Shown: positions 10,629 to 27,486 of the stretch, one piece after another
How the letters are laid out: the number at the start of each line of letters is the position of its first letter
How positions within the stretch are numbered: the first letter of the stretch is position 1
Virus record (IMG/VR): IMGVR_UViG_3300007734_000693
Span: 1 to 43,982 of that record
Direction: 5' to 3' (one strand)
Origin: a virus
Length of the DNA stretch: 43,982 nt
Program-made: the position numbers and the translations under genes
The notes under the pieces: generated by a model
What the model was told of the DNA's origin: nothing
The model's database searches: none
What the model saw: only the letters and a program-made list of their open reading frames with translations

Positions 10629-11197
10629 GTTATTCATCAATAATAAAAAAAACTTGTAAATGCGGATGCGGTAAAATGCCTTCTATTGGGTATGCTGGAT
10701 ATAATTCAGGATGTAGGTTAGATTTGGTAAAAGATAAAATAGATAGGCAATCTGAAAGGCAAGCAATGGCAATTAAAAAAGAATATGAAGGGGGACGGGT
10801 AGATGATTTATCGGGCTTAGAAGATGATTTGGATAGGGTAGTAAGCCGAATAGTAAGAATAGGGGAAGCTGATAGTAACGGGAATGTTTCTTGTTTTACT
10901 TGTGGGGCAACTAATCACTTTACTAAAATGCAATGCGGTCATTTTATCCCAAGAGCAAACAAGGCTTTAAGATGGGAACTAACAAACCTAAGAACCCAAT
11001 GTGTATCTTGTAATGAGCATAAGAACGGTAACCTAAAAGTATTCGCAGAAAAACTTGACAAAGAAAATCCAGGAACAAGCGAATGGTTAAAAGAACAATC
11101 AAGGCAACCCGTAAAATACTACCGTCATGAACTAAAACAAATACTATTAGGGTATAGGGCGAAACTTAAAATTATTGAACAAAAATTAAATAAATGA
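10625..11197 (+). CDS. ninG: NinG/Rap-type recombination protein
   Basis: Matches the lambda NinG family. C90 and C93 (CFTCG), C104 and H106 (CGHFIPR), then NLRTQC126VSC129NEH132KNGN form the conserved zinc/HNH core. Extra N-terminal Cys (11, 13, 15, 30) could form another metal site. In lambda, NinG (Rap) is a structure-specific nuclease that cuts recombination intermediates. The start overlaps the HNH gene stop by four bases. A related HNH nuclease of other function is the only real alternative. Confidence 0.85.
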   Translation: MSYSSIIKKTCKCGCGKMPSIGYAGYNSGCRLDLVKDKIDRQSERQAMAIKKEYEGGRVDDLSGLEDDLDRVVSRIVRIGEADSNGNVSCFTCGATNHFTKMQCGHFIPRANKALRWELTNLRTQCVSCNEHKNGNLKVFAEKLDKENPGTSEWLKEQSRQPVKYYRHELKQILLGYRAKLKIIEQKLNK

Positions 11198-11979
11198 AGC
11201 GGTTTATAAGTTTTAGTGGGGGTATAGAAAGTACAACTATGTGTATTTTATACGGCAAAGGGGCTACCGCTATTTGGTGTGATACTGGTGCAGAACACAA
11301 AGAAATGTATGATAGGGTTAATTTTTGCGAACAAAAACTGAAAGAAATACATAATGGGGATTTTACATTACTAAGATTAAAGCCAAACGTAAAAGTAAAA
11401 GGCGTATATGTTGATAATTTAGATGATGCTATAATTGGGTGGAACTTTATGCCAACAAAAATGATGCGTTGGTGTACGGGTAAGTTTAAGATAATACCTA
11501 TTGATGATTTTTTAAAATCACAAGGAGAGTGTGAATTACTTATAGGATTAAATGCAGATGAGGAATCAAGGGAGGGTAACTATGGGTTACAAGCAAATGT
11601 GTCTTATTTGTGTCCACTACAAAATGATGGATTAGATAGGGATGATTGTAAATTAATTTTGCTTGAACACGGTATGTTGCCAAACTTCCCAATGTATATG
11701 CAGCGAGGGGGGTGTAAATATTGCATATTCAAGTCTATATCAGAGTGGAAAGCTATGTATATTTTTGATAGAGATACCTTTTACGAATGTAAGTACTTAG
11801 AAAACAGGGTACAAGATAGAAGAAAAAAGTTTTTTGCAATATCAATGACTGGCAGAAGTTTACAAAGCATAGAAGATGAGTGTGAAAGAGAAATTAAGAA
11901 TTGGGGAGTAGATGCGGTTAAGGATATGTATAAAGATATAGTTCAAACACAAAGTTGTGGTGCGTTTTGTCATAGATAA
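11194..11979 (+). CDS. PP-loop ATPase/PAPS reductase-family enzyme
   Basis: The N-terminus SFSGGIESTT (SGGIES at 8-13) is the pyrophosphate-binding PP-loop, followed by WCDTGAEHKEMY as in PAPS reductases and DndC-like proteins. RWCTGKFKIIPI at 92-103 is the conserved substrate motif. Cys 174 and 177 (GGCKYC), with C140, could bind a cluster or metal. The family activates sulfur or nucleotide substrates. The actual substrate in phages is generally unknown; DNA or tRNA modification and sulfur scavenging are options. Start overlaps NinG by four bases. Confidence 0.85.
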   Translation: MKRFISFSGGIESTTMCILYGKGATAIWCDTGAEHKEMYDRVNFCEQKLKEIHNGDFTLLRLKPNVKVKGVYVDNLDDAIIGWNFMPTKMMRWCTGKFKIIPIDDFLKSQGECELLIGLNADEESREGNYGLQANVSYLCPLQNDGLDRDDCKLILLEHGMLPNFPMYMQRGGCKYCIFKSISEWKAMYIFDRDTFYECKYLENRVQDRRKKFFAISMTGRSLQSIEDECEREIKNWGVDAVKDMYKDIVQTQSCGAFCHR

Positions 11980-14447: not shown

Positions 14448-15095
14448 ATGAAGTATTGCCCGATTTGCAATAACGAATCACCCAAGTTATTTACAAAATT
14501 AAATGTTGATTACTACAAGTGTAATAACTGCCAAACAATATATTCAGCCCCACTTAATAATGAAAATTTAGTAGGAGGGGCTTTTGAAGTTGATAGAAAC
14601 GAAAAACAAAATCATTTAAGGATTGAAAGAATAGACAAGATTGTAAATATTATTCCAAGTAAAGACTTGGTTAATATACTTGATTTTGGTTGTGGTCATG
14701 GGATGTTTATTGATGATTTAAAAAAATCGGGGTACACAAATGTAGATGGGTATGATGCTTTCTATGAGCCATATTCAAAGTTACCAAAAACTAATTTTTA
14801 TCATGTAGTATCAATGGTTGAATGTATAGAGCATACATCCCCTCCGTTTGTTGAATTAGATGTTATTTTTAGGTCGTTGGTTAATGGTGGTTGCCTTATG
14901 ATTGAAACTTCATTTACTGATGTAGCTTTTGAAGATAATATCCCACTTGAAGATTTTTTTTACATTTCACCACAAGCGGGGCATAGCACAATATTTTCAC
15001 ATCATGGGCTTGATTTATTAATGTCATTGAAGGGGTTTATTGTTAAGCCACATTTTGACCGTCATGTAAGGTTATACCAAAAATTTATTAAATGA
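14448..15095 (+). CDS. Zinc-ribbon SAM-dependent methyltransferase
   Basis: An N-terminal zinc ribbon with C4-x2-C7 and C25-x2-C28, then a class I methyltransferase domain with motif I ILDFGCGHG (77-85) and an acidic end of beta 2 (DGYDAF). This is the Methyltransf_23/3-demethylubiquinone-like layout common in sugar-biosynthesis clusters. First gene of an operon of four glycosyltransferase-like proteins, so it likely methylates a sugar or glycan. Its stop overlaps the next start by four bases. Confidence 0.85.
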   Translation: MKYCPICNNESPKLFTKLNVDYYKCNNCQTIYSAPLNNENLVGGAFEVDRNEKQNHLRIERIDKIVNIIPSKDLVNILDFGCGHGMFIDDLKKSGYTNVDGYDAFYEPYSKLPKTNFYHVVSMVECIEHTSPPFVELDVIFRSLVNGGCLMIETSFTDVAFEDNIPLEDFFYISPQAGHSTIFSHHGLDLLMSLKGFIVKPHFDRHVRLYQKFIK

Positions 15096-15913
15096 GCCAC
15101 AAAAGGAATATTAGCCTATTAACTATGGGTGCGGGGAATGTTATAGTCCTTGAAGAAACATTAAAAAGTTTTGTGCAAAGCGGGATATGTAATGAGGTTA
15201 TTTACGGAGACCTTTTAATATTCCCAGAGGATAGAGAAATACTAAATACATACATTGAGCCGTACAATATGAAGGTGGTTGAATTTCCATTTAACTACAT
15301 TTTTAAAAACGGGTTTTATTCAGTACTAAATGCCCTTGCAGATAAGGCTTCCAATGACCTTGTTATCTATATGAATACTTCCGAAATATGCTCAATAAAT
15401 CATGGAATAAACGAAATAATAGATAACAACCCCGAATGTAATACTTTCTATTTTGACCACGCAACAGACCCCCATAGATGGTATAGATGCTACAATAGGC
15501 ATGAATTAAAATGGAGTGGAATGATACACGAAGAAATTACGGGCGAATTTAGACCATACCATAAGCCAATATTTACAATGGCTGACTTAGAAAAAGACTT
15601 ACATAGTTCGTTTAAGGCAAAAGTATTGAACGATATAAAAGAAATTGTTTACTTCCAACAATATAAAAACCTAATTGACTTCCCCGAAAAACAAGGGGCA
15701 ACAAATGATGGTTGGCTTAACTTCTCAAAAAGCAATTATCAAAGCATGGATGATAGGCTTAAATTAAAAGGTAAACGATATGAAGCATTTATTGAAGGAG
15801 ACTTATACAAGTACCTTGAAGATGCTTATGGGAATAAAGAATTTGAAAAAGAAAGATACGAAAGTAATCACATGATAGAGTTTCAAGGAGACCCAAAGTA
15901 TTTAGGTAAATGA
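15092..15913 (+). CDS. Glycosyltransferase-like protein (GT-A type)
   Basis: 273 aa. The start (NISLLTMGAGNVIVLEETLK) has the first strand and helix of a family-2-like fold. LVIYMNTSEIC near 90-100 sits where the metal-binding acidic motif normally lies, but the usual DxD is not obvious. A later HATDPHRWYRCYNRH and GMIHEEITGEF resemble acceptor-side motifs of family 2 enzymes. Overlaps at both ends support co-translation. Substrate unknown. Confidence 0.6.
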   Translation: MSHKRNISLLTMGAGNVIVLEETLKSFVQSGICNEVIYGDLLIFPEDREILNTYIEPYNMKVVEFPFNYIFKNGFYSVLNALADKASNDLVIYMNTSEICSINHGINEIIDNNPECNTFYFDHATDPHRWYRCYNRHELKWSGMIHEEITGEFRPYHKPIFTMADLEKDLHSSFKAKVLNDIKEIVYFQQYKNLIDFPEKQGATNDGWLNFSKSNYQSMDDRLKLKGKRYEAFIEGDLYKYLEDAYGNKEFEKERYESNHMIEFQGDPKYLGK

Positions 15914-16527
15914 AAATACTATATGTCATATTAAGCCACAAGGATAATGAGGATAAAATAAATCTTCAAAAGTCCACATGGCTATCCTTTAAAGGGGTAG
16001 AAGATAATTACATATACCTTACTAAATCATTCATTGAAGATACCTATGAAAACGTACCAAGAAAGTATAGTGATTTTATAAGGGAGTTTAGCCACTTTAA
16101 CGAATACGATTGGGTGTTTTTTTGTGATGACGATACGTTTGCCTTTCCTAAAAAATTAAGCCACCTATTAAGATATTTTGATGCAAGTAAGCCATTAGTA
16201 ATTGGAAGGACGGGTGTTTATGAAGGGTACTTATATTGTTCTGGTGGTGCGGGATTTGCCGTTAGCAGAAACTTAATACTTAGGGTTAAATCCTATATGC
16301 ACAACCAATCGTTCAAACACTTGCCTAATAGTGATACATCATTTGGTATGTGGGCAAAAGAAGCAGTAAATGAGGTAGTATTTGTTGATAGGGCTGACCA
16401 ATTCCAAACGCAACACCTACGCCATGACGATAACGGATTAGTTGATATTGAAGCGTGTATTTCGTTTCACTATTGCCAAGAATACGATTTTAAAATTTTA
16501 AGAAAATACCTAAAATATTCAGTATGA
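15910..16527 (+). CDS. Fringe/GT31-like glycosyltransferase
   Basis: 205 aa. The motif VFFCDDDTFAF (Asp 73-75) is the metal-binding DDD of beta-1,3-glycosyltransferases of the Fringe/galactosyltransferase class, and YCSGGAGFAVSR (110-120) is the typical following loop. The last part (LPNSDTSFGMWAKEA, then HFRHDD-like HLRHDDNG) also fits this family. It would transfer a sugar from a nucleotide-sugar. It is shorter than eukaryotic relatives, which carry membrane anchors. Confidence 0.75.
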   Translation: MKILYVILSHKDNEDKINLQKSTWLSFKGVEDNYIYLTKSFIEDTYENVPRKYSDFIREFSHFNEYDWVFFCDDDTFAFPKKLSHLLRYFDASKPLVIGRTGVYEGYLYCSGGAGFAVSRNLILRVKSYMHNQSFKHLPNSDTSFGMWAKEAVNEVVFVDRADQFQTQHLRHDDNGLVDIEACISFHYCQEYDFKILRKYLKYSV

Positions 16528-17531
16528 AATTTTCAATATTGTTGCCACATTGGAAAAGTGGGCTTATAACAACATACGCAATAGAACAACTTTATAAAAA
16601 TGTAGGTAGGCATGAAATAGAACTATTTGTTATAAATAATAATTCGGGGGATGGAAGCGAATTGGGGTTTATTAATAAGCAACATAAGGGGTTTAATTAT
16701 TTAGAGTACCCGAAAGATTTAATACAATCACATGGAATAAGTTTTGATTGGGTATTGCCAAAAGTAAATACCGAATGGTTTATAACAGTAGAATCGGATA
16801 GCTTTCCCACTAATGACAAATGGCTTGACTATTACGAAGATTTAATTAATGAAGGATATGATGGGGCTGTATCGTTAATGCAATTATCGGGAGGGAAGTA
16901 TGGACATCCATGCGGAGGACTTTATAATAAAAAGATTTGGCAAGAAGCTAAAAGGTATTGTAATGATATTCAATATGCCTATTTCCCAAATATGAGCCAC
17001 TTCAATACGTTTGACTGCCACGCCATGATTCATAAGTCAATAGTGGAAGATGTATTAGCCATCCCAAGCGATTACATAGAATTAGCCAATGGTTATAAAG
17101 GATTAAATAGGCAACAAATGGTTGCAAGGCTTATGTATTATTCGCCAGTAGTTGCACCATTTCATAACGGGATGGGGATGTTACATGAATCAGTAAATAC
17201 ATACGGTCAAAGATGCCCCGAAACAGAAGTTCCAAATATCCTATTAAGGGATAAGCCTAAAATTGTGAATAGGATAGGATATGAGCCTGGGCAATGGTTT
17301 TATTATTGGCAACTTGCTATGGGGAAGAAAATAAAGCACATTGAAACTCAAGTTAAATGGCTGCCAAATAGAGAAAATCAACAACAAGAATATACATTAA
17401 CTGAAAATGGGTTTAAGCATATTTGGGCAGGGAGTAGTTACTTAGATATGAAAGATACCGATATGAATGATGTATATGAGTTCAAGAAAAATCAAATTGA
17501 AGAATTATATAATCAACTTTTAAATAAATAA
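16524..17531 (+). CDS. Family-2-like glycosyltransferase, 335 aa
   Basis: Begins FSILLPHWKSGLITTYAIEQ, then LFVINNNSGDGSE, the nucleotide-sugar-binding start of GT-A enzymes. EWFITVESDSFP (about 84-95) is the DxD-type site. The C-terminal third is acceptor-specific and not recognised. Overlaps the previous gene by four bases. Probably the main chain-building enzyme of the island. Confidence 0.8.
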   Translation: MKFSILLPHWKSGLITTYAIEQLYKNVGRHEIELFVINNNSGDGSELGFINKQHKGFNYLEYPKDLIQSHGISFDWVLPKVNTEWFITVESDSFPTNDKWLDYYEDLINEGYDGAVSLMQLSGGKYGHPCGGLYNKKIWQEAKRYCNDIQYAYFPNMSHFNTFDCHAMIHKSIVEDVLAIPSDYIELANGYKGLNRQQMVARLMYYSPVVAPFHNGMGMLHESVNTYGQRCPETEVPNILLRDKPKIVNRIGYEPGQWFYYWQLAMGKKIKHIETQVKWLPNRENQQQEYTLTENGFKHIWAGSSYLDMKDTDMNDVYEFKKNQIEELYNQLLNK

Positions 17532-17533
17532 AC

Positions 17534-18370
17534 ATGGAAACAACTTCATTTCTACATTCTGGTTCAATAGGGGACTGTTGGGCAGCTATCCCTGCAATAA
17601 ATGAGCATTATAAAAAGACAGGCAAAAAAGTAGTATTGTATCTTGAAAAAGATAGAAAAGCGTTTTATTATGAAGGGGCGGTACACCCAACAAAAAGTGC
17701 TGATGGGGAACAAGTAATGCTTAATGAAGCAATGATTAGTTTAATGATACCCTTATTTAAAGAGCAAGAATGTATTGCTGATTGTTTAGTATGGAACGGA
17801 GAGAAGGTGCAAGTGGACTTAAATATGATTAGGGACACTTTTGTAAATATGCCTAATGGAGATTTGCGTAGGTGGTATTTTTATCCATTCCCCGATTTAT
17901 CATGCGACCTTTCCCCTAAATATATAACAGTACCAGATGCAGAAGAAGATTATGCCAAAGGGAAACTTATTATAGCAAGGTCTGAAAGGTATAGAAACGA
18001 AAATATAGACTACTCTTTTTTAAAGCCATACGAAGATGATTTGTTGTTTTCGGGTACAATGAGGGAGTATAATAATTTCTGCATGACCTTTGATTTAAAC
18101 ATTAAGAAACTAATTGTAAAGGACTTTAAGCATCTTGCACAATGCCTTAAACAATCAAAGGGGTTAATGAGCAACCAAACAATGATATTCCAAATAGCGG
18201 AAGGGTTAAAGATTCCGAGAGTAGTTGAGTTATGCAACTTTGCAGCCAATGTGATACCCGTAGGGGAAAATGCTTTTGATTTCTATGCACCACAAGCGGC
18301 TGAATATTATTTCCATGTATTGAACGGAAGCCTTGAAAGCTACATTAACAAACTAAAAAACCCCGCATAA
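17534..18370 (+). CDS. GT-B glycosyltransferase-like protein (GT9-like)
   Basis: 278 aa. It starts FLHSGSIGDCWAAIPAI, like the GDxxLALPA start of heptosyltransferase (GT9) proteins. Near the C-terminus SKGLMSNQTMIFQIAEGLKI and PRVVEL match the donor-binding segment of that fold. The central part is divergent. It lies two bases after the previous gene. Its end overlaps the terminator of the convergent minus-strand gene. Confidence 0.65.
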   Translation: METTSFLHSGSIGDCWAAIPAINEHYKKTGKKVVLYLEKDRKAFYYEGAVHPTKSADGEQVMLNEAMISLMIPLFKEQECIADCLVWNGEKVQVDLNMIRDTFVNMPNGDLRRWYFYPFPDLSCDLSPKYITVPDAEEDYAKGKLIIARSERYRNENIDYSFLKPYEDDLLFSGTMREYNNFCMTFDLNIKKLIVKDFKHLAQCLKQSKGLMSNQTMIFQIAEGLKIPRVVELCNFAANVIPVGENAFDFYAPQAAEYYFHVLNGSLESYINKLKNPA

Positions 18371-18399: not shown

Positions 18400-18639
18400 T
18401 TATCCAATCAAAGTAACCAACTGGCTAAAAGTCTCACGACAGAAGTACTGGTCTCCTGTGGCTACAACTTGTGCAACGGAATATACGTTTACACCAGTAG
18501 ACAAACTCCTTGTAGCAGAACCAGAAACATCCCTTGCAATAACGCCAGTAGTTGGCAAAGCAATGGTTTGAACGGAAGCCAAAGGAATAGGGTCTCTTTG
18601 ATTAATTTGATAAACATTTACTGAAAAAACATTTGCCAT
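18400..18639 (-). CDS. Small probable structural protein, 79 aa, minus strand
   Basis: The minus-strand frame (MANVFSVNVYQINQRD, then PIPLASVQTIALPTTG) has balanced, beta-rich, natural-looking composition. The plus-strand frame over it is Ser/Asn-rich and unnatural. A minus-strand terminator lies just past its stop. The pattern resembles small beta-structured virion or decoration proteins, but this is inference. No clear minus-strand promoter is seen upstream. It is isolated between two plus-strand units. Confidence 0.65.
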   Translation of the reverse strand: MANVFSVNVYQINQRDPIPLASVQTIALPTTGVIARDVSGSATRSLSTGVNVYSVAQVVATGDQYFCRETFSQLVTLIG

Positions 18640-18691: not shown

Positions 18692-18723
18692 TTTGGCGAA
18701 TTATCAATTTAAACATATATTTG
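18692..18723 (+). promoter_or_regulatory. Promoter of the chaperonin operon, TTTG-N20-TATATTTG
   Basis: TTTG 18692-18695, 20 bases, TATATTTG 18716-18723. Expected start near 18729, giving a leader of about eight bases before ATG 18737. Strong match to host-type promoters. No heat-shock type (CIRCE-like) inverted repeat is visible. Confidence 0.8.
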
Positions 18724-18736
18724 CAATATACTTTTT

Positions 18737-18874
18737 ATGAAGAATATACTTTTAAAAATTACAGACGGGATGTATCATAAATTATTGGATTATAAAAAAG
18801 CCAATGAATTTCCGTCCTTACTTTATACAATTAGGTACATAATTAATCAATTCTTTAAAAACATAAACAAATGA
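18737..18874 (+). CDS. Small protein leading the chaperonin operon, 45 aa
   Basis: ATG 18737 to TGA 18872-18874, with the stop overlapping the GroEL start by four bases (ATGA). Basic and helical (LLKITDGMYHKLLDYKKANE, then LLYTIRYIINQFFKNINK). Coupling to GroEL strongly supports it being translated. It has no GroEL or GroES motif. It could be a leader or an adaptor, but there is no direct evidence. Confidence 0.6.
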   Translation: MKNILLKITDGMYHKLLDYKKANEFPSLLYTIRYIINQFFKNINK

Positions 18875-20520
18875 CAAAACAAGTTTTATTTGGCAGAGAT
18901 GCAAGGGATAAAATGCTTGAGGGCATTAAGAAAATAACAAACGCCGTAAGGGTTACTATGGGCGGTTCTGGTAAGTGTGTATTAATCGGCAACGGGGTTT
19001 ATGGTAATGATGGGTTAGTCCAACTACCCACATTAGTAACAAAGGATGGGTACAATGTAACAAAGCATTTCCAATTAGAGGATTTGGTTGAAAATCGTGG
19101 GGCTTTGCTTATTAAAGAAGCTGCATTAAAAACCGTTGAACAAGCGGGGGATGCAACAACTTGTACTTGTATCCTTTCAGAAAACCTTATTAGCAATGGT
19201 GTAGATTTGATTAACGAAGGGGCTAATTCCCAAGAAATAAAAAAGGGGATGGATAATGCCCTTGAAGATGTATTAAAAGCCCTAAAAGAAATATCAGTAC
19301 CACTAAAGGGGGATATTGATAGGATTAGGCAAGTAGCAACCGTTTCAGCAAATAATGATTCATATATTGGCAACTTGATTGCAGAAGCCTATTCAAAAAT
19401 AGGGGATGATGGTATTATTGACATTGAAGAAAGCAAGGGTGTAGAAACTGAAATTAAAGTATCTGATGGGTATAGATTTGAGAGGGGTTGGCTATCACCA
19501 TTATTTGTAAATGAAAGGGCAAAGGAAACTTGTGAATTTGAAAACCCACTTATCCTATTATATCAACATAGGATTACCCACCATACACAAATTGAAAAGG
19601 CTTTATCATTTGCAATGAGTAATAATAGACCATTGCTTATTATTTGTGAAGATGTAGATGAAGCAGGATTAGGTTTTTTAGGTATGAATAATATTCAAGG
19701 AAGAATTAAGGTTTGTGCCGTTAAATCACCCGAATTTGGGGATGCCCGTAGGGATTGGATGGAAGATATTGCCATTAGTACGGGTGCTACATATATCAGC
19801 GACCTTCGTGGGTTGAATATCAAAGAAGTAAAAGAAAGCCACTTTGGTAGTGCTAAAAAAGTAATTGTTTCTAAAACAGAGACAGTAGTAATTGGAGGTA
19901 ATTCAGATAAGGATGTGTTGGAAGATTTTGTGAATGATTTGAAAATGAATTTAGCCCAAGCTAAAACGGAAGAAGAAAAATACCCAATAGAAAAGCGAAT
20001 AGCAAGGCTTACTGGTGGTGTTGCAGTAATATATGTTGGTGCTGCCACAGAAACAGAATTAAGAGAGAAAATTGATAGGGTTGATGATGCAGTAAGGGCA
20101 ACTAAAGCAGCCATTACAGAGGGATATGTAGCGGGTGGTGGTACTGCGTTTTTGAGAATATTAAACAAAGGCGTAGGTGATACTACTGACTTTAATAAAG
20201 GGCGTGAACTTGTATATGAATCCCTTTCATCCCCACTAAAACAAATTTGTGCAAATGCGGGGCTTGATTCAAGTAAAATTTTAGTTGATGTAAAAAATGC
20301 AGGTAAGACTGTTGGAAGAATGGATGGTACAATAAGTAGTGTAGCACAGACTTGGGGTGGCATCAATTACGGTTACAATGTATTAACAAATGAAATAGTA
20401 GATATGGTAGAAGAAGGTATCATTGATTCAACTAAAGCCCTAAGATGTGCTTTAACCAATGCCGTATCAGTAGCGGGTATGTTTTTAACAAGCGAATGTG
20501 CAATCATAACAATTCATTAA
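18871..20520 (+). CDS. groEL: Phage chaperonin GroEL
   Basis: Complete group I chaperonin, 549 aa. ATP-site residues are present: TKDG with D59 (equivalent to E. coli D52), GDATT with D94 (D87), and RVDDA with D406 (D398), followed by the VAGGG motif (420-424). The apical domain spans about 195-385 with RFERGWLSPLF at 202-212. Differences: MGGSGK replaces the usual LGPKG, GDATT replaces GDGTT, about six residues are inserted near 38-54, and the Gly-Gly-Met tail is missing. It would form a ring that folds phage (probably capsid) proteins with the GroES encoded next door. Confidence 0.96.
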   Translation: MTKQVLFGRDARDKMLEGIKKITNAVRVTMGGSGKCVLIGNGVYGNDGLVQLPTLVTKDGYNVTKHFQLEDLVENRGALLIKEAALKTVEQAGDATTCTCILSENLISNGVDLINEGANSQEIKKGMDNALEDVLKALKEISVPLKGDIDRIRQVATVSANNDSYIGNLIAEAYSKIGDDGIIDIEESKGVETEIKVSDGYRFERGWLSPLFVNERAKETCEFENPLILLYQHRITHHTQIEKALSFAMSNNRPLLIICEDVDEAGLGFLGMNNIQGRIKVCAVKSPEFGDARRDWMEDIAISTGATYISDLRGLNIKEVKESHFGSAKKVIVSKTETVVIGGNSDKDVLEDFVNDLKMNLAQAKTEEEKYPIEKRIARLTGGVAVIYVGAATETELREKIDRVDDAVRATKAAITEGYVAGGGTAFLRILNKGVGDTTDFNKGRELVYESLSSPLKQICANAGLDSSKILVDVKNAGKTVGRMDGTISSVAQTWGGINYGYNVLTNEIVDMVEEGIIDSTKALRCALTNAVSVAGMFLTSECAIITIH

Positions 20521-20523
20521 AAC

Positions 20524-20793
20524 ATGGCAAATATTCAAGCAACAAACAATTTCGTTTTTATCGTTAAGGACGAAGAACAATCGGAGAGCAATGGTCTTAT
20601 AATTCCAGGAAGTAGTAGGGAAAAAACAAATACTGGAACTATCTTTTCGGTAGGTGATTTAGTCCAAGATAAAAAAATCAAAAACGGGAAGGGTAAAAAG
20701 TGTATGTTTCACAAAGGGATTGGGTTCTCCATTGAATACGAACAAACTGAATACCTTGTATTGGCAGGGGAAGAAGTAATTGCAGTATTATGA
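20524..20793 (+). CDS. groES: Phage co-chaperonin GroES
   Basis: 89 aa, slightly shorter than the usual 95-97. The start (ATNNFVFIVKDEEQ) is strand one. SNGLIIPGSSREK is the mobile loop with L25-I26-I27 in place of the GroEL-binding IVL. TGTIFSVGDL, then VLAGEEVIAVL at the end, complete the barrel. It lies three bases after GroEL and its stop overlaps the next gene by four, so the operon is tightly coupled. It would cap the phage or host GroEL ring. Confidence 0.9.
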   Translation: MANIQATNNFVFIVKDEEQSESNGLIIPGSSREKTNTGTIFSVGDLVQDKKIKNGKGKKCMFHKGIGFSIEYEQTEYLVLAGEEVIAVL

Positions 20794-21338
20794 TAGCAAC
20801 AAACAACAAAATTATAGTCTCGGTTAATTTAGCACAAAAGGACATCGTTGTAATAGGCGGTGTCCAATTTGCTACTGCTAATAACTTTGAAACTAATTAT
20901 AGGGAAAAAAGCCCCGTTATAGCTACTGTTGTGGAAGGAAACGAATATGTTAAAAGCGGTGATAGTATCATTTGCCACCATAACCTATTCTATCAGCCCT
21001 CCCCATACTACCTATACGATAACCTTTATTCTATCCCTTTTGGCAAAACTATCTTTATTAAAATTAATTCAGACGGTAGTTTAATGCCAATATGCGGGAA
21101 TATGATTTGTGAGCAATTAGAAGTAAAGTCGCAGTTTTCAATATCGGAAGTAAAAAAGAAGCCACATATTAACAGATACAAGGTTATTGATGGAGGTTGG
21201 ACTATGTATAAAAAAGATGATTTAGTTTTTACCCGTCCAAATGCAGGGTATGTAATAGTATATAACATAGAAGGAATAGAGCATAGAATATGCAAGGTTG
21301 ATTCAGACCAAATATGCGGTGTTTTAAAACATATATAA
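20790..21338 (+). CDS. Putative tandem GroES-like protein, 182 aa
   Basis: I infer two diverged GroES-like barrels. In the first (about 1-105), NNKIIVSVNL is a first strand, VIGGVQFATANN is a loop-like segment, and SPVIATVVEG then YVKSGDSIICHHN recall the GEVLAVG and VKVGDIVIF parts of GroES. In the second (about 107-182), a loop gives way to MYKKDDLVFTRPNAGYVI and DSDQICGVL, like the GroES end. Translation is coupled to GroES (ATGA overlap). If right, it may cap the ring asymmetrically. An unrelated beta protein is possible. Confidence 0.55.
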   Translation: MIATNNKIIVSVNLAQKDIVVIGGVQFATANNFETNYREKSPVIATVVEGNEYVKSGDSIICHHNLFYQPSPYYLYDNLYSIPFGKTIFIKINSDGSLMPICGNMICEQLEVKSQFSISEVKKKPHINRYKVIDGGWTMYKKDDLVFTRPNAGYVIVYNIEGIEHRICKVDSDQICGVLKHI

Positions 21339-21401: not shown

Positions 21402-23906
21402 ATGGCAAATCAGTCAGATGAATTGGGCTATAATCCGCTACTACAAAGGTTTTTTCTATCCCCACAAGAAAAGCAAGATAAAGAAAAAGGTAAGACTATT
21501 TTAAAGGCTTTATATGCCCAACAAACAAGTAATGACACCAACCTAAACTTTTTTAAAGCAAGGGCGGCAAGGTGGTCTATGCTTATGTTATGGGCGAAGG
21601 GTAGTCAGAATATGCAAGAATTTCTTGACTACATGAATATTTCCACATCGGAAGGGAATAAAGCATGGGTAAATATTGATACAACCCAATCAAGGATAGC
21701 AGCACAATTCGTTGGCACATTGGTTGAAAGTATGGCTAAGAATAAAATCTATCCATGTGTAAACGCAATAGACGATGGGAGTATTTCTGAAAAAGAAAAG
21801 AGATTTTATGATGCCTTATTTAGAATGAAAGAAGTTGAAACAATCAACGACCTTCAACAACAATCTGGAATACAACTTGAGCCAACTAACGCTTATGTAC
21901 CAGATGATGAACTTGCCGCAAAAGTACACTTTGAATTAGAAGATAAATTGCCAAAGGAAATACGCTTTGAGCAAATGCTTACTGCCCTTCAAAATGAAAT
22001 TAACTACGAAAGCATACTAAATAGAAAAACATTATACGATTTATCTGTACTTAATTTTGGTGCAACAAAGATAGAGAAAGTACCTACGGGTGGATATACA
22101 GTAAGAAAATGTGTTGGTACTAATATGATTTATAATTTCTTCATGAATGATAGTGGGGATATTGAACTTACTACCATTGGGGAATTTTATAATTTAAAAG
22201 TAAAAGACTTTAGGGCTAAGTTTGGACAAAGCCCCGATAGACCAGATGGTCTTACCGAAAAAGAAATATTTGAATTAGCTAAACTTTCAAGCAACAAAAA
22301 TATAGGTGTTTACAACGGGGTTGGAATGTTTAACTATGTATGGAATCAGAATTGGGCATTAACAACATACAATCAGAATAGACCCTATGACGATTGCTCA
22401 ATATTAGTAATGGATTGTGAAATTAATTTTTCAGAAGATAATTACTATGTATCAAAGAAAGATGCTTTTGGTAGGGAAAACTTACAATCAAAAAAGACAA
22501 TACCATATCAGCAAATAACAAAAGACGGGGCTATTATTGAGCAGAAAAAACCCGATGATGTATCTGTAATTAAAAGCAAAAAGAATACATGGATGCGTGG
22601 GGTATTTGCCCCGTATGGAGATAAATTACTTTATTGGGGGACACCCGATATTATTATTTCTCCGTTCACCGATATTACAAAACCATTATCATCTTTTACA
22701 GTTAATATTCCTAACAATGATGGAGAATATGTGCCTTCATTATTTGAAAGAATACTTGAGCCATTAAGGGAATATCAATTAACTAAACTTAAAAGGAAAC
22801 AATTAATTGCCAAAATAAAACCAAGTGGTATAAGGATTGATGTAGAAAGTGCCAGGAACTTAGATTTAGGCAACGGAGATTCTATTCAATGGGAAGAAGT
22901 AGTAAAGATATACGAACAAACGGGTAATGAAATTTGGAGTTCAAAAGGTATAGACCCATTGCAACCACAAGCCCCCCCATTAGGCAATACAGTAGTAGAT
23001 AAATCAATAGGGGATATTATTGGGCTTACAAATATATTAGCAAGTATCGTTAATGAAATACGCCAATTAATAGGTGTACCAATGTATAGGGACGGTAGTG
23101 ATGTAGGGGATAGGACGGCTGCAAGATTAGCAGAAGGACAAAACCAAGCATCTTATAATGTTACTGATTTCGTATTAAACGCTAACAATAAACTATGGGA
23201 AGATACCTTCCATAAAGTTTGCTTGCTTCATTGGAACGATATAGTCAAATCAGAGCCAGAATCTAAGGACGATATGATTAACACAAGATTCCAAGTATCA
23301 GTAAAAATGAAGGCTACCGAATATCAAAAACAATTACTTGAACAAGATATTCAAAGATATAGCCAAGTTATTGATGCAACGGGCAACCCTGCTATATCAC
23401 CCAAAGATGCCATGATGCTTCGTGAAATTGATGATTATAAATTAGCTTGTTGGTATCTTGCTACAACAGTAGAAAGCAATCGTAGGAAGTCAATAGAAGA
23501 AAGCGAAAGACTACAAAAGCAGAACGCAGAAGTTCAACAAGCATCCGCAAAACAAGCCGCCGAAATGGAAGGGCAATTACAAGAAAGAAAGTTGGAAGCT
23601 GAAAAGCAAATTGAAGAATTTAAAGGTACTCAAGCAAAAGAACTTGCAACAGTAAATGGGTTATGGGCTGCAATATCAAAAGGCGTTATTTCCGCAGATA
23701 TAGCAATGCCTATTATTCAACAGTTGATACCTAATATCACTATGAATCTTTCTACCGAAAACCAAAATATGCAAGCAGCCCAACAACAACAAGCAATGCA
23801 AGAACAAATGGCAGCACAACAGCAACAAGCCATGCCACAAGGGGCAGCAGAAGAACAACAAGAACAAGTACAAGAACCAATGCAACAAGAATTAATGGAA
23901 CAATAA
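21402..23906 (+). CDS. Portal protein
   Basis: 834 aa, the size of portals in Bacteroidota podophages and crAss-like phages. After a helical start, a segment like TRIAAQFVG (TTQSRIAAQFVGTLVES) opens the wing and stem domain. A helical region near 695-750 is coiled-coil-like, and the C-terminus (about 780-834) is a Gln/Met-rich low-complexity tail, as often in these portals. Twelve copies should form the DNA channel at one vertex. Position directly upstream of terminase genes supports it. Assigned from size, composition and context. Confidence 0.8.
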   Translation: MANQSDELGYNPLLQRFFLSPQEKQDKEKGKTILKALYAQQTSNDTNLNFFKARAARWSMLMLWAKGSQNMQEFLDYMNISTSEGNKAWVNIDTTQSRIAAQFVGTLVESMAKNKIYPCVNAIDDGSISEKEKRFYDALFRMKEVETINDLQQQSGIQLEPTNAYVPDDELAAKVHFELEDKLPKEIRFEQMLTALQNEINYESILNRKTLYDLSVLNFGATKIEKVPTGGYTVRKCVGTNMIYNFFMNDSGDIELTTIGEFYNLKVKDFRAKFGQSPDRPDGLTEKEIFELAKLSSNKNIGVYNGVGMFNYVWNQNWALTTYNQNRPYDDCSILVMDCEINFSEDNYYVSKKDAFGRENLQSKKTIPYQQITKDGAIIEQKKPDDVSVIKSKKNTWMRGVFAPYGDKLLYWGTPDIIISPFTDITKPLSSFTVNIPNNDGEYVPSLFERILEPLREYQLTKLKRKQLIAKIKPSGIRIDVESARNLDLGNGDSIQWEEVVKIYEQTGNEIWSSKGIDPLQPQAPPLGNTVVDKSIGDIIGLTNILASIVNEIRQLIGVPMYRDGSDVGDRTAARLAEGQNQASYNVTDFVLNANNKLWEDTFHKVCLLHWNDIVKSEPESKDDMINTRFQVSVKMKATEYQKQLLEQDIQRYSQVIDATGNPAISPKDAMMLREIDDYKLACWYLATTVESNRRKSIEESERLQKQNAEVQQASAKQAAEMEGQLQERKLEAEKQIEEFKGTQAKELATVNGLWAAISKGVISADIAMPIIQQLIPNITMNLSTENQNMQAAQQQQAMQEQMAAQQQQAMPQGAAEEQQEQVQEPMQQELMEQ

Positions 23907-24354: not shown

Positions 24355-25026
24355 ATGGAATCAGTAAGGGGAAATAGATTTTTAGATATTACAAACATAA
24401 GGTTTGGGAAACTTATTGCTATAAAGGAAGTCGGAAAAAATAAGTCCAATCAATATATGTGGGAGTGCCTTTGTGATTGTGGTAAAAAAAGTATAGTATC
24501 TTCCAGTAATCTTGTTAGAAACAATACTAAGTCTTGTGGATGTTTTGGTGATTCTTATTTAGCAAATAAAACAAGGACACATGGTATGTCATCTACAAGA
24601 ATGTTTAAAATATGGGTAGGAATCCGTAAAAGATGTACTAATAAAAAGTGTATAGCATTTAAGGATTATGGTGGCAGAGGGATAAAGGTATGCGAAAGGT
24701 GGCAAGATTTTAATAATTTTTATTTAGATATGAAAAATTCTTATTCAGATAAATTAACATTAGATAGAATTGATACAAATGGAGATTACGAGCCATCAAA
24801 TTGCAGATGGGCTACTAATAAAATGCAATCAAATAACAGAAGAAATAATGTATTTATAAATCTAAATGGAGTTGTTAAAACCGTTTCAGAATGGGCTGAC
24901 TTATCTGGGGTAAGCAGCAAAAGAATTAGCCATAGGGTAAAAAATGGATGGGATGCCTATGACGCTATTTATAAAAAATCAATTACATCAAATATGGCAT
25001 CAATAAGCAAATATTTAATAGTATAA
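24355..25026 (+). CDS. Second HNH homing endonuclease-like protein
   Basis: 223 aa, same architecture as the protein at 10017-10628. Zinc-ribbon start (MWECLCDCGKKS, then TKSCGC), HNH-like core (DYGGRGIKVCERWQDF, then LDRIDTNGDYEPSNCRWATN) and a C-terminal SVSEWADLSGVSSKR-like DNA-binding part. It sits between the portal-associated gene and the terminase genes, a common landing site for homing endonucleases. No intron boundary is visible, so it is a free-standing insertion. Confidence 0.85.
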   Translation: MESVRGNRFLDITNIRFGKLIAIKEVGKNKSNQYMWECLCDCGKKSIVSSSNLVRNNTKSCGCFGDSYLANKTRTHGMSSTRMFKIWVGIRKRCTNKKCIAFKDYGGRGIKVCERWQDFNNFYLDMKNSYSDKLTLDRIDTNGDYEPSNCRWATNKMQSNNRRNNVFINLNGVVKTVSEWADLSGVSSKRISHRVKNGWDAYDAIYKKSITSNMASISKYLIV

Positions 25027-25028
25027 TT

Positions 25029-25385
25029 ATGGCTGATTTAAAAGACTTGAAAATATTAGAATATGAGAAAATATTAGGTATTGGCGAATATTCTATTGAA
25101 AAAAGAGCATTTTTTGCTTTATGCAGAATAGTTAGTTTACAAACGGATAGGCTAAATAAATTTAATCTTGATACTGAAATTGTAAAAGATTCTAAAGAAG
25201 ATAAGATTTATGACAGAACTATGGGTATTGTAAAGGAAATGCCAAATATGATTTCCAATATCAATGTTCTTAGAAAAGAACTTGGTATAAATAAATCAGA
25301 ATTTGAGAATCAAAGTAATAAACAACGAATAACCCCAGAAAGTATATCAGATGTATTGGGAAATACCGCAGGGAAGCAAGATTAA
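25029..25385 (+). CDS. Possible small terminase subunit, 118 aa
   Basis: Directly upstream of TerL, overlapping it by 35 bases. All-helical: KILEYEKILGIGEYSIEKRA starts a helical bundle and the rest is a coiled region. Size and position suit a small terminase (DNA recognition), but there is no clear helix-turn-helix, so the call rests on context. Confidence 0.45.
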   Translation: MADLKDLKILEYEKILGIGEYSIEKRAFFALCRIVSLQTDRLNKFNLDTEIVKDSKEDKIYDRTMGIVKEMPNMISNINVLRKELGINKSEFENQSNKQRITPESISDVLGNTAGKQD

Positions 25386-27486
25386 TATACAAGGGCTTGA
25401 TTGTTATATACCGCCAGTTGGGTATGTATATAATATAGCTACTAAGAAATTAGAGCATATTGGCGTTTATAGTCGTTCAGAAATACCGACAGAACAATAT
25501 TGGGAAAGAATACCGTTGCCTTATTGGTATAAGGATACAATGAAAGCGTGGGATAAATATGATAGGTCAAAGAAAGATTCAGATGAAGAATTTTATGACG
25601 AACAATTAGAGGTCTTTAAAAAACAAGAATGGAGTAGAAGGCTTAATGGGTTTTGGTTTATGAACTATAATCCCCAAAAAGAAGAAAGTGAAGCTGTATA
25701 TCTTACTGGTGCTAATTACCTTTTATTACAATGGTTATTAATTGATATTGGTGTTCCGAAATTTAGATTTCCAGATTTAGAGTATTATTATTTTCAACAG
25801 TATTGCATAGAAGATAATAACTGTATGGGGATGATAGAAATAACTAAAAGAAGATTTGGTAAAACATATAGGGGCGGTGTATTTTTATTAGATTACGTTA
25901 CAAGAACCAAAAATGCAAATGGTGGTATTCAGTCAAAAACTGGTGGTGATGCGAAGAAGGTTTTTGCAAAAGCGGTAGTCCCAGTATTTAAGTCTTTACC
26001 TAAATTCTTTAAGCCAGAATATGATATGTCTTTAGGTATAACACCTAAGACTGAAATAAGATTTCAACAAACAAACGTAAGGGGTAAGAAAGCGGAAGAG
26101 TCATTAGAAAAGGATGAACTAAATTCAATGATTGATTTTCAAAGTGCGGATAAGGTTGCATACGATGGGCAAAAACTTCACCGCTATTTTGGAGACGAAT
26201 TTGCTAAGACAGTAGAAACGGATGTATATGAAAGGCATGATGTAGTTAGGTATTGTTTACTTGATGATGAAGGGAATATAATAGGGAAGGCTTTATATTC
26301 ATCAACAGTAGAGCAATTAGAAAGTGAAAAAGACGGGGTTTCTGATGCTGCTATAATGCTATGGAATGATAGCGACCAATTAAATAAAGGAGAAAATGGT
26401 AGAACGCCAAGCGGATTATATAGGTTCTTTATGACTTCCGTAAGAGCAAGGAATTTTGATATATACGGATTCCCAGATACTACTAAAACAGAGAAAGAAA
26501 TAGATGCTGATAGGGAAACAGTTAAGCATAATCAACGGGCGTGGGCGGCAAGGGTAAGGAAAGAACCAAAGACAATAGAAGAAGCCTTTTATGCGGGAAG
26601 GAATAATTGTGAATTTAATGCTCAAAATGTACAAAATCAAATTAAAGTAGAAGAAGATAATCCTTCATATTGGAGGCAGTCAAGATTAGTTATTAAGAAA
26701 GAAATTAAAAAATCAATATACCCAAATAAAAAGGATAAAGAAGAAAAGAGTATAGGGTATATGGATGATGCAAATGGGGGTTGGTTTATATTAGAAGAAC
26801 CAATTAAGAAAAATCATTTCAAAGTAATTGGTGATTATATAGAGCCACTAAATGAAATGATGTATCAAATTGGGGTAGATACAACACAGGACAGGGTAGC
26901 TATTGCGGGTTCTAATCCCGCTATTACCGTATTTAAAAAATCTTGTATTATTGATGGAGAAGAAACAGGGCTATATCCAGTAGCGTTATGGATTTCTCCA
27001 ACAAGATTAGATATTCACTTTGACGAAGAAGTATTAAAGGCTTGTATGTGGTATGGATGTAAAGCTAATTATGAAATAGATAGGCGTACTGATTTTTATA
27101 GGTATTTCTGTAAAGAGAATTGCCAGGCGTTTTTAACATGGACACCCAAAATATTGATGAATCCATTAAAACCAACTAAAAAGCCAGAATACGGAAGTAG
27201 GTCAGGAGACCCATTCCAACTTGCACAAATGCTTCAAATAAGTAAATGGTATATTGATGGGGATTCTAATGAACAATATAATGGTCATGTGCATAGGATA
27301 AAATCTATACCAATGCTAAAGCAAATATTATCGTACAATCATTTAGATAGAACTAAAAGCGATTTATTCGTAAGTCTACAAATGGCTTTAGTAGCGGTAT
27401 TCGGTGAAATGCAGATGCCTAAAAAGGTGGACAATATTGCCCCGATTAAAATCCTTCCAACATATACAATTAAAATGGCACAATAA
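25351..27486 (+). CDS. terL: Large terminase subunit
   Basis: 711 aa packaging motor. ATPase domain: Walker A-like TKRRFGKT (165-172) and Walker B YFGDEF (279-284, HRYFGDEFAK). Nuclease domain: IGVDTTQD with D510 as first metal-binding Asp, and a later YEIDRRTDFYRYF stretch. It cuts concatemers and drives DNA into the head through the portal. The N-terminal 90 residues are an extra leading segment. Start at ATG 25351 overlaps the upstream gene; I see no better one nearby. Confidence 0.85.
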   Translation: MYWEIPQGSKINIQGLDCYIPPVGYVYNIATKKLEHIGVYSRSEIPTEQYWERIPLPYWYKDTMKAWDKYDRSKKDSDEEFYDEQLEVFKKQEWSRRLNGFWFMNYNPQKEESEAVYLTGANYLLLQWLLIDIGVPKFRFPDLEYYYFQQYCIEDNNCMGMIEITKRRFGKTYRGGVFLLDYVTRTKNANGGIQSKTGGDAKKVFAKAVVPVFKSLPKFFKPEYDMSLGITPKTEIRFQQTNVRGKKAEESLEKDELNSMIDFQSADKVAYDGQKLHRYFGDEFAKTVETDVYERHDVVRYCLLDDEGNIIGKALYSSTVEQLESEKDGVSDAAIMLWNDSDQLNKGENGRTPSGLYRFFMTSVRARNFDIYGFPDTTKTEKEIDADRETVKHNQRAWAARVRKEPKTIEEAFYAGRNNCEFNAQNVQNQIKVEEDNPSYWRQSRLVIKKEIKKSIYPNKKDKEEKSIGYMDDANGGWFILEEPIKKNHFKVIGDYIEPLNEMMYQIGVDTTQDRVAIAGSNPAITVFKKSCIIDGEETGLYPVALWISPTRLDIHFDEEVLKACMWYGCKANYEIDRRTDFYRYFCKENCQAFLTWTPKILMNPLKPTKKPEYGSRSGDPFQLAQMLQISKWYIDGDSNEQYNGHVHRIKSIPMLKQILSYNHLDRTKSDLFVSLQMALVAVFGEMQMPKKVDNIAPIKILPTYTIKMAQ

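Follow-up and report, generated by a model that had tools for sequence, protein, structure and literature searches.

The analyzed stretch of DNA (hereafter, the window) is a whole IMG/VR virus record of 43,982 bases, and it contains a compact operon with the genes for a GroEL, a single-domain GroES, and a second co-chaperonin of 182 amino acids with two predicted Cpn10 domains in tandem. We consider it moderately likely that these genes encode a group I chaperonin specific to the phage, which would have two types of lid, the single GroES and the tandem 182-aa protein, and would likely serve head proteins. The gene order, the homology of GroEL and GroES, the identity, at the family level, of the C-terminal half of the 182-aa protein as Cpn10, and the linkage to packaging genes are well supported. 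GroEL has been known since 2017 in the group of Bacteroidetes phages to which the window belongs. New here is the predicted double-domain lid of the phage, which an earlier note on this DNA had left unnamed; it is the tandem co-chaperonin that makes the locus more than ordinary. A description of tandem Cpn10 proteins in phages was not found in the open-licence literature.

Organization of the operon and its surroundings

The four genes that the earlier note had proposed, including their ATGA overlaps and the gap of three bases, were recovered base for base (Table 1). Its placement of the operon directly upstream of the capsid module was also correct, as the portal gene (phrog_6547) begins at position 21402, 63 bases 3' of the operon. 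Furthermore, the suggested search of metagenomes for the same gene order beside a portal gene yielded two additional viral contigs, L006 and L007, with the order GroEL-GroES-182 aa-portal, one of them with an HNH gene before the portal. The order shared by the three sequences shows that this lineage has all of its chaperonin genes grouped next to the portal gene, and the two other viral contigs mark the operon as a phage gene set and not as the misassembly that had been raised as a possible refutation.

Table 1. Features of the chaperonin operon and the adjacent head genes in the window.
Feature	Position	Strand	Properties	Basis
Promoter-like TTTG-N20-TATATTTG	18692..18723	+		Bacteroidetes-type pattern match
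Leader gene	18737..18874	+	45 aa	ORF; 49% identical counterpart in L007; no family match
GroEL, group I chaperonin	18871..20520	+	549 aa; overlaps leader via ATGA	Pfam, PHROG, NCBIfam, residue comparison, tree
GroES, single-domain Cpn10 lid	20524..20793	+	89 aa; 3-base gap after GroEL	Pfam, PHROG
Second co-chaperonin, predicted tandem Cpn10 (Cpn20-like)	20790..21338	+	182 aa; ATGA overlap with GroES	
Predicted N-terminal domain of the 182-aa protein	about 20790-21071	+		
C-terminal domain of the 182-aa protein	about 21072-21335	+		
Portal protein gene	21402..23906	+		phrog_6547, 1.8e-29
Terminase large subunit gene	25351..27486	+		phrog_6681, 2.2e-70

The 45-aa leader did not match any family in Pfam, PHROG, or NCBIfam. 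However, its counterpart at the same place in L007 indicates that it is a real gene. From its sequence pattern, we would guess that the product is perhaps a ribbon-helix-helix-like regulator. The earlier note proposed one promoter for the operon. A match to TTTG-N20-TATATTTG, which we take to be the Bacteroidetes-type promoter consensus, is indeed present in front of the leader gene, but the pattern occurs in the window at chance level (5 matches versus 3.07 expected). Therefore, a single promoter for the operon at this position is no more than plausible.

Several further observations were made in the vicinity of the operon. A 79-aa ORF on the minus strand (18400-18639) points away from it and is conserved in L006 (5370-5612, minus strand) and L007 (5531-5770, minus strand), without a convincing family match. 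The region upstream (14448-18370) encodes a methyltransferase, Fringe-like and family 2 glycosyltransferases, and a 278-aa protein, and genes similar to this cluster are present in L006 and L007. HNH endonuclease-like genes were found at varying insertion points around the portal gene (24355-25026 in the window, 11143-11775 in L006, and 8490-9224 in L007). A PAPS reductase-like domain (6.8e-5) is part of a 261-aa protein encoded at 11194-11979. Recoding at the 3' end of the window was ruled out, as the apparent gap is an open-ended ORF in the standard code.

The phage GroEL and GroES

The GroEL of the window matches Pfam Cpn60 (1.6e-58) and phrog_5725 (2e-138). Its scores are above the cut-offs of PF00118 (199.1 versus 34.3 bits) and of the NCBIfam subfamily PRK00013 (515.9 versus 397 bits), and below that of the canonical equivalog TIGR02348 (510.3 versus 582.1 bits); by these profile scores, it is a divergent GroEL outside the canonical equivalog. 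The protein is 40% identical to the enterobacterial GroEL that was used as residue reference. In comparison with this reference, the residues of catalysis and nucleotide binding (T30, K51, D52, D87, D398, and D495) are kept, so that the three catalytic Asp residues reported earlier are indeed present. The altered nucleotide loop and the GDATT motif were likewise verified (GPKG is replaced by GGSG, and GDGTT by GDATT, within a change of GDGTTT to GDATTC), and GDATT is common to the GroELs of both close relatives. The Gly-Gly-Met tail, correctly described as missing, is also missing from the other phage GroELs that were compared, whereas the host GroELs retain it. Substrate and lid are bound by, among others, the apical GroEL residues L234, V263, and R268. 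All three are altered in the window protein (L234E, V263G, and R268Q), as are inter-ring residues. In our reading, the protein would form an ATP-driven seven-fold folding ring with ATPase activity.

In a tree of 27 GroEL sequences, the proteins of the window, L006, and L007 formed a clade of their own with full support (100/100) on a long branch, apart from the host GroELs. Therefore, the window GroEL is an established phage gene and not a recent acquisition from a host.

The GroES is an ordinary Cpn10 of one domain, in which the roof loop is shortened (Pfam Cpn10 1.5e-12; 47.8 bits versus a cut-off of 21.1). The view that phages with a GroEL and GroES pair are uncommon was not borne out. GroEL was found in 245 phage records, which is an upper bound, because the records include many near-identical isolates and a few contigs of bacteria (e.g. 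a Salmonella WGS contig), and all four relatives that were searched as whole records (Panino, phi40:1, elemo, and ctfjg026) encode both a GroEL and a single GroES. Among the "phage" records with GroEL, Salmonella WGS contigs and possibly short Listeria and Enterococcus records look bacterial, so that public counts of phage GroELs are inflated. A report from 2017 described GroEL in 36 marine genomes of the phi38:1-like type (PMC5332604), and one from 2024 described GroEL/GroES of the Maribacter phage Panino (PMC11590407).

The 182-aa protein and its relatives

The 182-aa protein alone did not yield a convincing match in Pfam, NCBIfam, or PHROG, including no direct match to the phrog_13932 model (0 families). 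A tblastn search with the protein gave one weak lead, the 182-aa "co-chaperonin GroES" of Maribacter phage Panino, and a pairwise BLASTP comparison of the two proteins gave 3e-8 for that pair. The Panino protein is a member of phrog_13932, a family of 180-200 aa proteins with the label "co-chaperonin GroES". The window protein is about 20% identical to the long co-chaperonins of this family, and a profile of the window trio (window, L006, and L007) aligned with a profile of four long co-chaperonins over 149 columns (hhalign, 94.8%). By these comparisons, the relationship of the 182-aa protein to the phrog_13932 family is a distant one. Relatives of the Panino protein were found in 77 phage records, with counts per genus equal to those of the records with the related portal, and in IMG/VR at least 560 stretches, among 600 candidate stretches listed, encode relatives of the 182-aa protein. 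The long co-chaperonin contigs L113-L122 sit in bacterial MAGs, e.g. three in a single Aliivibrio MAG, and are probably phage contigs that were binned with their hosts. The phi40:1 gene gp006, which is located between GroES and GroEL and had been suspected to encode a second lid, lacked a family match and was dropped.

Family-level profiles allowed the two halves of the protein to be considered separately. The C-terminal half aligned with single GroES proteins (hhalign, 93-96%), and the Pfam Cpn10 cut-off was passed by phi40:1 gp089 and by a homologue in the contig G015; at the family level, the C-terminal half is, on this profile evidence, a Cpn10 domain. For the N-terminal half, a Cpn10 signal was not obtained in the profile comparison. 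The window trio alone gave too shallow a profile for a successful hhalign comparison with single GroES, and a PDB sequence search with it did not return a co-chaperonin. A confident AlphaFold2 model of the window protein from 60 aligned sequences had a pLDDT of 82.4 and a pTM of 0.75; an earlier model from 3 sequences (pLDDT 41) was discarded. In a Foldseek search of the PDB, Cpn10 chains ranked first with weak E-values (best 0.01), and therefore the tandem reading rests on a second aligner together with the profile evidence for one half. With the second aligner, the best PDB match was the Chlamydomonas Cpn20 (7ekq_R; Z 10.5, 155 residues, rmsd 4.3), and the alignment covers residues 1-180 of the model and both halves of Cpn20, whereas single Cpn10 structures align with residues 95-182 only (Z up to 8.2). 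The second-best viral structure match was the 200-aa "cpn10" of Cellulophaga phage phi18:3. Thus, the N-terminal half is predicted from the model to be a Cpn10 domain as well, and the whole protein to be a tandem of two. An N-terminal loop of glycine and hydrophobic residues, of the GroES mobile-loop type, is common in the family (GGVQF in the window). Members of the family have a short C-terminal loop that differs from one to another, and the window protein lacks a clear GroES-type mobile loop at this site.

The position of the tandem gene in relatives is highly constant. The terminase gene is located 3' of the long co-chaperonin gene in every related viral locus (84 of 84), at a median distance of 339 bases, and the portal gene follows next after the terminase gene in 59 loci, being seen where the locus is long enough. 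This linkage to terminase and portal suggests a defined client. A GroEL gene near the tandem gene was found in 13 loci, always upstream and on the same strand. In most relatives, GroEL/GroES are several kilobases away and the tandem gene is alone in the head module; for example, in phi40:1, elemo, Panino, and ctfjg026 it lies at the terminase/portal genes and GroEL and GroES lie elsewhere. Among 13 larger records with the tandem gene, 11 encode a Cpn10 that scores above the cut-off, and 10 encode a GroEL; GroEL was not found in the other 3, two of which are shorter than the complete relatives.

Possible roles of a second lid

Chloroplasts contain Cpn60 together with both Cpn10 and the tandem Cpn20, and Cpn20 and Cpn10 form functional hetero-oligomers; Cpn20 forms tetramers, and the native form is presumed to be a mixed lid of seven domains (PMC4242682; PMC5780408). 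The phage set resembles this system in that one group I chaperonin is combined with a single-domain and a predicted tandem-domain co-chaperonin, and the model of the 182-aa protein has Cpn20 as its structural match. The phage set differs in its phage origin, the single GroEL gene, the identity to Cpn20 of only 11%, and the reduced C-terminal loop. Moreover, the hetero-oligomers have been demonstrated for chloroplasts, whereas the phage set is known here from genes and a predicted fold. Among phages, the gp31 of T4 is a lid with changes that enlarge the chamber for the coat protein (PMC6318259). It was among the Cpn10 structure matches and shares with the window proteins the encoding of a GroEL lid by the phage and the suspected purpose of coat-protein folding, but it consists of one Cpn10 domain and works with the GroEL of the host, whereas the window encodes two lids and a GroEL. 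The chaperonins of the Pseudomonas phages EL and OBP function without a co-chaperonin (PMC5934643); they are phage-encoded GroELs like that of the window, which adds two co-chaperonins. The phrog_13932 members of Panino, phi40:1 (gp089), and elemo phages are homologous to the 182-aa protein over most of the length and lie beside packaging genes, but in the window the 182-aa gene is joined into the GroEL/GroES operon. Cellulophaga phi38:1-like (group 2) phages share GroEL, GroES, the long co-chaperonin, and a related portal, but their GroEL/GroES are far from the head genes, and the window GroEL is only 36% identical to theirs.

In the mechanism that we favor, the GroEL would be the ATP-driven folding ring, GroES its single-domain lid, and the 182-aa protein a second, tandem lid in the manner of Cpn20, capping the chaperonin alone or mixed with Cpn10. 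By analogy with chloroplasts, single and tandem lids might combine into a lid of seven domains, e.g. three tandem proteins and one single protein, or might replace one another, and the mixed or exchanged lid would create a chamber fit for bulky head proteins such as coat or portal. Dedication to the folding of one of these proteins would fit the gene order. Several observations do not favor this mechanism, namely the missing profile signal for the N-terminal half, the missing family match of the window protein alone, the weak C-terminal loop, the distant GroEL/GroES genes in most relatives, the changes L234E, V263G, and R268Q, and the 3 of 13 records in which GroEL was not found. Tandem Cpn10 lids have been described for plastids and apicoplasts, where the fit of an even domain number to a ring of seven-fold symmetry is debated. 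A large phage family with a predicted tandem lid, in many cases accompanied by a GroEL and a single GroES of the phage, offers a small system for mixed lids and client-specific folding, and with cultured phages such as phi38:1 and elemo the idea is directly testable. More tentatively, and with considerable doubt, Bacteroidetes phages may have evolved a three-part chaperonin, apparently independently of plastids, in which a packaging-linked tandem lid provides an uneven lid or an enlarged chamber for one head protein.

Alternatively, the operon might merely unite two separate systems in a small lineage, a GroEL/GroES machine and a gp31-like tandem lid that acts on a head protein without the phage GroES, e.g. 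on the host GroEL. For this, T4 gp31 provides a precedent (PMC6318259), and both the separation of the tandem gene from GroEL/GroES in phi40:1, elemo, Panino, and ctfjg026 and the three records without a detected GroEL are in agreement with it. We nevertheless regard it as rather unlikely, as the three genes are adjacent in the window, L006, and L007, and as GroEL is upstream on the same strand in the 13 loci in which it is near the tandem gene. It is improbable that the 182-aa protein is Cpn10-like in fold without being a lid of GroEL, and instead acts as an adaptor during the assembly of the head or during packaging, or caps another ring, e.g. a protease. The translational coupling of its gene to GroES and GroEL in the window, L006, and L007 argues against such a role, as does the GroES-type N-terminal loop that is common in the family, although the constant position beside the terminase gene and the weak C-terminal loop would be compatible with it. 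In addition, the Chlamydomonas proteins Cpn11/20/23 bind the ClpP core (PMC8889267), and the best structure match derives from that complex.

GroEL and GroES are universal in bacteria, and thus the operon could in principle have been captured recently from a host or misassembled into the contig. This explanation is extremely unlikely and was rejected, because two independent viral contigs have the same gene order beside the portal gene, and the GroELs of the window, L006, and L007 form their fully supported long-branch clade away from the host GroELs with their Gly-Gly-Met tails.
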